A stretch of 39,449 nt of DNA, from positions 1 through 39,449 of the forward strand of contig CAKZSI010000027.1 of NCBI GenBank assembly GCA_937918935.1, read 5' to 3'. This document shows positions 38,674 through 39,449 of the stretch, piece after piece. Below the pieces are notes generated by a model that saw only the letters and a list, made by a program, of their open reading frames with translations, did not search any database and was not told where the DNA came from. The DNA comes from an uncultured Chloroflexales bacterium (lineage in GTDB: Bacteria > Chloroflexota > Chloroflexia > Chloroflexales > Chloroflexaceae). The position numbers and the translations under genes were made by a program. Each line of letters starts with the position of its first letter. Positions within the stretch are counted from its first letter, which is position 1.

Positions 38674-38693
38674 CCTGGTTTGCTGCGTCCACA

Positions 38694-38731
38694 GGCAGAC
38701 GCGGAGGGGCCAGAGCCCCTCCGCGTCTGCC
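38694..38731 (+). terminator. 17-bp hairpin after the beta-propeller gene
   Basis: Perfect arms (38694-38710 and 38715-38731, GGCAGACGCGGAGGGGC and its reverse complement) around the CAGA loop. No T-run follows. 38732-38830 holds nothing recognisable. Confidence 0.7.
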
Positions 38732-38830
38732 CATTGTTAGCCATAGGTTCGCTGTGTAGCCCTTTATGTGCCGTGGGAAAACCCCGCTTGCATCAATTTG
38801 GGACTCCAACGACTCGCTAACACAAAGATC

Positions 38831-38859
38831 TTGACAACCCGCTCGCGGCCGCGTATACT
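38831..38859 (+). promoter_or_regulatory. rRNA promoter P1
   Basis: TTGACA (38831-38836), a 17-nt spacer and TATACT (38854-38859), close to perfect sigma70 consensus. It is 490 nt upstream of the 16S gene. Confidence 0.85.
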
Positions 38860-38865
38860 AATTAA

Positions 38866-38993
38866 TGTTCACGGTCTCACTCCTGTGGAGGCAGACACAA
38901 ACAACTCAAGCACTCAGGAGCGACAAGCGAATCTCTTCAGGGAAACCTGGAGGTCGCGCCAGGATGGAGGGACAACCCGCCACCTGGTTTTTT
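38866..38993 (+). ncRNA. first copy of duplicated rRNA leader ending in an intrinsic terminator
   Basis: From the P1 start the ~128-nt transcript contains GGTCTCACTCC-NNN-GGAGGCAGAC, GACAAGCGAA, a hairpin CAGG-GAAA-CCTG (GNRA loop), and then a hairpin (CCAGG-A-TGG-A-GGG with CCC-G-CCA-CCTGG) directly followed by TTTTTT (38959-38993). The second copy at 39090-39215 shares the same blocks in the same order. It may be an rRNA leader with attenuation or a stand-alone small RNA. Confidence 0.6.
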
Positions 38994-39054
38994 GTGGGTC
39001 CGATAGGCTCCAACGCACCTGTGATGCAATACTGGTGAAAATCGGCATGACCTC

Positions 39055-39083
39055 TTGACAAACCCTGAGGTTCGTGCTATACT
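39055..39083 (+). promoter_or_regulatory. rRNA promoter P2
   Basis: TTGACA (39055-39060), a 17-nt spacer and TATACT (39078-39083) preceded by TGC (extended -10). It lies 224 nt after P1. Confidence 0.85.
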
Positions 39084-39089
39084 ACCGGA

Positions 39090-39215
39090 GTTGAAGGTCT
39101 CACTCCAACGGAGGCAGACCCAGACAACTGAGACCCTTGCGACCGACAAGCGAACCGCGCCGGGTAATCCGGAGACGGCGCCAGGATGGAGGGGAAACCC
39201 GCCGCCTGGTTTTTT
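39090..39215 (+). ncRNA. second copy of duplicated rRNA leader ending in an intrinsic terminator
   Basis: The leader repeats the P1 blocks (GGTCTCACTCC-NNN-GGAGGCAGAC, GACAAGCGAA). The middle hairpin is changed to CCGG-GTAAT-CCGG, with a compensatory base-pair change relative to copy 1. The terminator hairpin and TTTTTT are at 39181-39215. In this copy GGTCTCA/TGAGACC also pairs, and CCGACAA before GCGAA is complementary to TTGTCGG overlapping the T-run, which could act as an antiterminator. The 16S gene starts ~105 nt later. Confidence 0.6.
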
Positions 39216-39319
39216 GTCGGCCAGGTCTCGGGCCTGCACCTGAACAACTGAACAGTGACAGTTTTACATAGCCTACGTCAACAACGGATGGTGAGGGCGC
39301 CGAAAGGGGCACTTCACGA

Positions 39320-39449
39320 TCCCACGCAGAGTTTGATCCTGGCTCAGGACGAACGCTGGCGGCGTGCCTAATGCATGCAAGTCGAACGCAGGGCGCTTGC
39401 GCCGCTGCGTGGCGCACGGCTGAGGAACACGTGGGTATCTGCCCCGGAG
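39320..39449 (+). rRNA. 16S ribosomal RNA, 5' end (partial)
   Basis: The universal 5' sequence AGAGTTTGATCCTGGCTCAG begins at 39328, followed by GACGAACGCTGGCGGCGTGC and CTAATGCATGCAAGTCGAAC, then GCGCACGGCTGAGGAACACG. The mature end is estimated ~8 nt before the AGAGTTT block. The remainder of the gene lies outside the window. The pattern GTGCCTAATGCATGCAAGTC with GGCTGAGGAACACGTGGGT is consistent with Chloroflexia. A GTGA..TCAC-type stem (about 39290-39320) just upstream may be part of the processing stalk. Confidence 0.93.

Follow-up and report, generated by a model that had tools for sequence, protein, structure and literature searches.

What purpose could a terminator-like hairpin serve between a promoter and a 16S rRNA gene? 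The question is raised by the window, i.e. the whole 39,449-nt stretch analysed (contig CAKZSI010000027.1 of an uncultured Chloroflexales bacterium), near the right end of which two similar units (77% identity) lie in tandem ahead of the 16S gene (Table 1). The features on which a first-pass annotation had based its description were found in the sequence. Promoters of the form TTGACA-N17-TATACT, P1 and P2, precede the two units, each matching 11 of 12 consensus positions with a 17-nt spacer (the promoter scan found 3 such sites in 9450 bases, with 2.2 expected by chance); the distance from TTGACA to the T-run is nearly equal, 157 nt in copy 1 and 155 nt in copy 2; the blocks GGTCTCACTCC, GGAGGCAGAC and GACAAGCGAA are common to both copies; and the middle hairpin differs between copies by a compensatory change, from a paired A-U to C-G. 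The pairing proposed for copy 2, CCGACAA with TTGTCGG, is possible as claimed, and a second one, GAGACC with GGTCTC, could form around it; the closing partners in copy 1 are different (GGAGC/GCTCC and ACAA/TTGT).

Table 1. Features of the two leader copies and the adjoining 16S rRNA gene in the window
Feature	Position	Strand	Basis
Promoter P1, TTGACA-N17-TATACT (TTGACA 38831-38836, TATACT 38854-38859)	38831-38859	+	sequence, promoter scan
H1 hairpin, copy 1, GUCU..AGAC with CA/GC internal loop	38874-38896	+	sequence; H1 pattern in 62/71 terminator-bearing leaders
Putative closing helix, 5' strand, copy 1, GGAGC	38917-38921	+	pairs with GCTCC 39007-39011; sequence, class-level strand-swap test
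H2 hairpin, copy 1	38927-38957	+	sequence, folding, alignment
Terminator-like hairpin (38959-38987) and T6 (38988-38993), copy 1	38959-38993	+	sequence, folding, covariance-model match 38872-39022
Putative closing helix, 3' strand, copy 1, GCTCC	39007-39011	+	sequence
Promoter P2, TTGACA-N17-TATACT (TTGACA 39055-39060, TATACT 39078-39083)	39055-39083	+	sequence, promoter scan
H1 hairpin, copy 2, then AGACAACTGAG	39096-39120	+	sequence, folding, H1 pattern counts
Putative closing helix, 5' strand, copy 2 (GAGACC 39130-39135, CCGACAA 39143-39149)	39130-39149	+	sequence, strand-swap test
H2 hairpin, copy 2	39150-39181	+	sequence, folding, alignment, RNAalifold
Terminator-like hairpin (39181-39209, -18.0 kcal/mol) and T6 (39210-39215), copy 2	39181-39215	+	ViennaRNA, strict test
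Putative closing helix, 3' strand, copy 2 (TTGTCGG 39214-39220, GGTCTC 39224-39229)	39214-39229	+	sequence, strand-swap test
boxA-like element GCACCTGAACAACTGAACAG	39236-39255	+	boxA-like site 3' of T-run in 70/71 leaders
16S rRNA gene, 5' part, start near 39321-39328; contig ends inside gene	39321-39449	+	Rfam RF00177

The name boxA is our assumption, from the resemblance of the element to rRNA boxA. Folding of the single units (132–133 nt) is moderately better than that of shuffled sequences (z -2.7, with 3 of 200 shuffles as good, and z -2.1, with 6 of 200). A generic terminator scan of the window, which found 7 candidates with 6.1 expected, did not list the two leader hairpins, presumably because both contain internal mismatches. 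That the leader element is more than a chance occurrence rests on comparative tests, namely a strict hairpin test, a strand-swap test, outgroups and promoter position. Between the upstream ORF and P1 lies a long GC-rich inverted repeat (38692-38737), part of which (38701-38737) has an 89% copy at G000:C48:14798-14833 and may be a dispersed palindrome.

Since BLASTN with the leader reached only 16 of 61 relatives, the DNA 5' of 16S genes was collected by means of an exact 16S anchor, which was present in 45 of the 82 Chloroflexales genomes searched and in at least 127 of 221 genomes of the phylum; for the latter, 60 places were fetched by region among the matches listed, in addition to the loci given. 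After removal of L051, L089 and L183 (less than 150 nt upstream) and of leaders identical in the last 100 nt, the set comprised 79 leaders from the order and another 79 from other Chloroflexota. A loose terminator scan gave 73/79 and 53/79 hits, respectively, many of them plainly spurious, and was replaced by a strict test demanding a hairpin of at most 48 nt with at least 5 pairs and -9 kcal/mol or better, ending 0–1 nt ahead of TTTT, and 6 or more T among 9 positions. It was applied to positions -260 to -45 from the 16S gene, with -800 to -585 as control stretch.

A stable compact hairpin directly before a T-rich tract, as expected of an intrinsic terminator, was found in 72 of the 79 leaders of the order; no upstream control (0 of 76) and 1.4% of dinucleotide shuffles had one. 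Copy 2 of the window is such a case (-18.0 kcal/mol by ViennaRNA; of the two copies, the stretch scored takes in this one). Since the match in L062 (at -58) sits 3' of boxA and was not counted, the correctly placed element is present in 71/79 leaders, all 71 of which have a d-score above 0, and is absent from its place in L059, L060, L062, L084, L099, L112, L114 and L115. Among the other Chloroflexota, 14/79 leaders passed the test (control, 1/79; shuffles, 2.4%). The Herpetosiphon-type families (Herpetosiphon-like f3, and f2), missed by the first anchor, passed in 13 of 16 cases in a wider stretch (-320 to -45), the remaining 3 having T6 behind a hairpin that by eye is weaker. None of 13 leaders from Pseudomonadota, Actinomycetota, Bacillota, Bacteroidota and Fusobacteriota, including E. 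coli rrnB, carried the strict terminator (a 14th, L255, was left out for having 61 nt upstream).

The hairpins at this position differ in sequence (CCAGG.., CTAGGGTCAC.., TCCGCTCC.., CGGCGCAG.. and others), and CTAG-type stems vary by paired changes, e.g. T-A, C-G and T-G at position 7, position 5 being mostly a mismatch. The proposal that selection maintains a structured rRNA leader, and that a terminator-like element precedes the gene, is supported for Chloroflexota; the hairpins are kept upstream of rRNA genes in relatives, where a lack of conservation would have spoken against it. The leader is confirmed as real and general in Chloroflexales. That the layout is an artefact of assembly or annotation at the ends of rRNA contigs, as might be suspected because the window ends within the 16S gene at a contig end, is hardly credible, since the same layout recurs in the single-contig genomes G031, G034, G042 and G061 and in many assemblies, with controls near zero.

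The leaders fall into two main types, which coexist even within one genome (in that of the window, type I at contigs C27 and C45 and type II at C69). Type I has H2 and CCAGG..CCTGG before TTTTTT or TTTTGTTTT, and type II has CTAGGGTCAC..GTGACGCTAG before TTTTTT; the hairpins of Herpetosiphon, f2 and 23S leaders are different ones. The H1 pattern [CT]CUCAC..GYAGA occurs in 62 of 71 terminator-bearing leaders (it is missing in 9) versus 1 of 8 terminator-less ones (Fisher p 3e-5, kinship ignored), as well as in 7/79 leaders of other Chloroflexota and 7/76 upstream control stretches (some of these perhaps being leader copies that lie upstream). ACAA follows within 10 nt 3' of H1 in 47 of the 62, versus 3.7% of control windows. 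In these 47 leaders it is ACAA and not a full boxA that comes after H1; the full boxA sits 3' of the terminator, a boxA-like site being recognised by pattern behind the T-run in 70/71 leaders at a median distance of 21 nt (range 8–45). Among the distances counted in the leaders, the largest value (L101) is an artefact of a short record.

The stretch 3' of H1 can pair with that between the T-run and boxA, so that a closing helix would enclose the terminator. From a MAFFT alignment RNAalifold recovered no more than the pairs of H2, the base of the terminator and, as an alternative, a small GCG..CGC hairpin, and an alignment-free strand-swap test was therefore used. In 16 leaders whose hairpin begins with CC (called "type I" in this test) the native value was -17.1 versus -11.1 (sd 0.76), with 0 of 20000 permutations reaching it; in 15 leaders, comprising all others, it was -9.6 versus -8.2 (sd 0.64), and 250 of 20000 permutations reached the native mean. 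The leaders are not independent, the 62 with a recognised H1 forming 31 groups at 80% similarity. Co-variation of the putative closing helix is well supported for type I, and for the other leaders such a helix is suggested.

Where 500 nt or more of upstream sequence was present (69 leaders), a promoter with 11–12 matches stands 5' of the terminator in 56, and the distance from the -10 box to the T-run has a median of 130 nt (65 leaders). Between the T-run and the 16S gene no good promoter was found in 69 leaders, the best matches being 5–9 (mean about 6.9), slightly above the 3–10 (mean about 6.2) of the control region. Transcripts of the rRNA must therefore run through the terminator, barring the use of a promoter of a different type. 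The duplication itself, although real in the window, is not essential, since a single TTGACA promoter within 600 nt is the rule (56/71). Two full leader copies on one contig were found in 5 genomes, that of the window, G001 (copies 91% alike), G004, G009 and G016. Copy 1 of the window resembles copy 1 of G004 (84%) more than it does copy 2 beside it (77%), and the duplication therefore appears to be older than the split (window 38872-39022 and 39095-39247 compared with L006, L007, L008 and L010). In L009, L014 and L016, extra upstream promoters are followed by H1 without a terminator.

A terminator might also insulate tandem promoters or block upstream transcription, the rRNA start then lying further downstream. 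A terminator-like hairpin ahead of a second promoter is seen in copy 1 of the window, where it precedes P2, and in f9, a family of another class of the phylum (L120-L131) with the order P1, H1-like hairpin, terminator-like hairpin, P2, boxA and 16S. In f9 the H1-like hairpin is followed by boxA-like ATTGAMAACTGAG in 10 of 12 loci, and a GCCGATG..CATCGG hairpin with a T-rich tail, placed between the two promoters, passes the strict test in 9 of 12. As an account of the Chloroflexales leaders, however, insulation is very unlikely, given that 56 of 71 have their single TTGACA promoter 5' of the terminator and that no good promoter was found downstream of it.

Unlinked rRNA genes allowed the terminator to be separated from boxA. 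Three Chloroflexus-like single-contig genomes (G031, G034 and G061) each have one linked operon and two unlinked 23S genes; unlinked 16S genes number two each in G031 and G034, and one was found in G061. The loci of the unlinked 16S and 23S genes beside the linked operon are L264, L272, L276 and L279 in G031, with a like arrangement in G034 and G061, and an unlinked 16S gene has its own strong terminator directly 3' of the gene (L264:1988). The unlinked 23S leaders of these genomes comprise a promoter, hairpins, a terminator (-12.8 kcal/mol, T7) and boxA, while the linked 16S-23S spacer has boxA and the same 3' sequence without the terminator. In a wider 23S panel that includes these loci, the terminator was present in 10 of 16 unlinked versus 0 of 9 linked places (kinship ignored). 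From the 31 places with which the panel began, L291 (without an anchor), L292, L293 and L307 (boxA-like site absent from the right place) and L295 and L297 (too short) were left out; L298 shows T6 behind a hairpin when inspected by eye, but it does not pass the strict test and was scored as a miss, and L306 was classed as unlinked from 359 nt. Since the unlinked genes carry the terminator and the spacers lack it despite sharing boxA, it belongs to the promoter module and not to rRNA maturation. Because 8/79 16S leaders are without the element and 6/16 unlinked 23S leaders fail the strict test, some lineages do without it.

These data bear on the view that the hairpin with its U-tract does not stop transcription in the cell, but forms a pause site, or a fold that aids folding of the leader, cleavage of RNase III type within the closing helix, or loading of the boxA complex. 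In favour of this view, type I leaders in every case enclose the terminator in a further helix, boxA follows it closely, and the E. coli leader structure tL is reported to aid antitermination (PMC3639268). On the other hand, a strong hairpin with a T-tract has been kept although the sequences differ, and the spacers, having the same boxA and following sequence, lack the hairpin in all nine cases, so that neither 23S maturation nor boxA needs it. We consider a non-terminating role rather unlikely, if still worth weighing.

The leader belongs to no named RNA family, as had been supposed: no Rfam family matched it, nor did it match anything in the plasmid collection searched. A covariance model built from 26 related units, including both copies of the window, which it consequently matches by construction (38872-39022 and 39095-39247), found matches in 43 of 82 genomes of the order. 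Of 151 genomes drawn from the phylum 11 had a match, 9 of them of the order and 2 marginal (E about 0.008). Chloroflexales-type leaders also occur on contigs L032 and L041, whose titles name Fimbriimonadales and Gracilibacteria MAGs; these titles or bins may be wrong.

The first-pass annotation had held that a terminator before an rRNA gene makes sense only with antitermination or attenuation, or if the leader is a small RNA made twice. A strong promoter and a strong hairpin would indeed yield an RNA of about 120 nt, and copy 1 has a promoter and terminator of its own. A functional small RNA is nevertheless improbable: all 8 covariance-model matches in the four single-contig genomes (G031, G034, G042 and G061) lie in front of 16S genes, with no free-standing copy (35 candidates per genome were scored in the first pass), and the body between H1 and the terminator differs between leader types. 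A trans-acting RNA, for which free-standing copies or a conserved body were sought, found no support in this search. The attenuator is the better of the two readings.

A stop signal between an rRNA promoter and its gene implies that the cell probably needs a way for polymerase to pass it. We think it probable that most autonomous rRNA units of the order contain a promoter-proximal attenuator that is passed by antitermination, with H1 as the likely loading site. The module would consist of i) the promoter, ii) H1, often with ACAA, iii) a helix enclosing the intrinsic terminator, and H2 in one type, and iv) boxA. Polymerase would reach the terminator about 130 nt past the -10 box, and one failing to pass would release a short RNA; the terminator would thus act as an attenuator or checkpoint, rRNA being made by polymerase in a terminator-resistant state. 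This state would most likely arise from an antitermination complex or a polymerase contact for which H1, together with its 3' flank, serves as nucleation site, H1 being the best candidate because it accompanies the terminator in both types. Termination in the cell, aided read-through and the factors responsible are what we infer from the leaders' sequences. One NusB and one NusG gene each were present in 4 of 4 genomes searched, in which no second NusG-type gene was found, and no conserved antiterminator pairing of the riboswitch or T-box type was noticed by eye in the leader alignment. More tentatively, the order may use a promoter-borne RNA antitermination system, in which H1 and the ACAA flanking it (together with H2 in type I leaders) would make polymerase terminator-proof and the terminator before boxA would discard unconverted polymerases, whether the unit is 16S, 23S or a full rRNA unit.

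What is known of the control of rRNA synthesis concerns mainly initiation. If polymerases must pass a conserved stop, elongation licensing would be a built-in step of rRNA synthesis in a bacterial order, a control point on ribosome production which in this form is without earlier description in the literature searched; that search, mostly without subscription journals, gave no report of an rRNA-leader terminator in Chloroflexota. The difference between unlinked 23S genes, with terminator, and spacers, without, also lets the purpose of rRNA antitermination be addressed cleanly.

Among known systems, the E. coli rrn leader (boxB-boxA-boxC, with Nus factors, SuhB and S4) is similar in having a hairpin and a boxA-like element in the leader and boxA also in the 16S-23S spacer (PMC10250234, PMC6614801), and its complex with SuhB is described in the latter as suppressing an intrinsic terminator in vitro. 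A boxA-like element likewise stands between promoter and 16S gene, by pattern, in 70/71 terminator-bearing Chloroflexales leaders. Unlike in these, where the terminator precedes boxA and is tied to the promoter, the E. coli rrnB leader lacks a strict hairpin-T terminator. Attenuation in the rrnB leader and the tL structure were reportedly described by Kingston and Chamberlin (1981) and by Zacharias and Wagner (1987). Pausing or attenuation, with a terminator-like structure in an rRNA leader, would be a shared feature. The E. coli tL is weak and lies 3' of boxA, whereas the Chloroflexales have a strong hairpin and T6 before boxA, across most of the order. Mycobacterial rrn promoter regions, with repeated promoters and CL1/CL2 leader motifs, resemble the present leaders in their tandem promoters and a conserved leader motif containing boxA, but the available part of the source mentions no terminator (PMC10218544). 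The rimP leader (Naville and Gautheret 2010) is a conserved leader terminator without visible antiterminator, proposed to depend on a protein such as NusA (PMC2965389). It differs from the Chloroflexales leader in belonging to a protein-coding operon, in sequence and in the phyla concerned. In HK022 put, EAR and LoaP-dependent elements, a promoter-near RNA could make polymerase resist terminators. With these processive antitermination RNAs (PMC7819879) the Chloroflexales leaders share the idea of a promoter-near RNA, no sequence relation being claimed. Those elements serve phages or capsule and antibiotic operons, whereas in Chloroflexales it is the rRNA units that carry the module.
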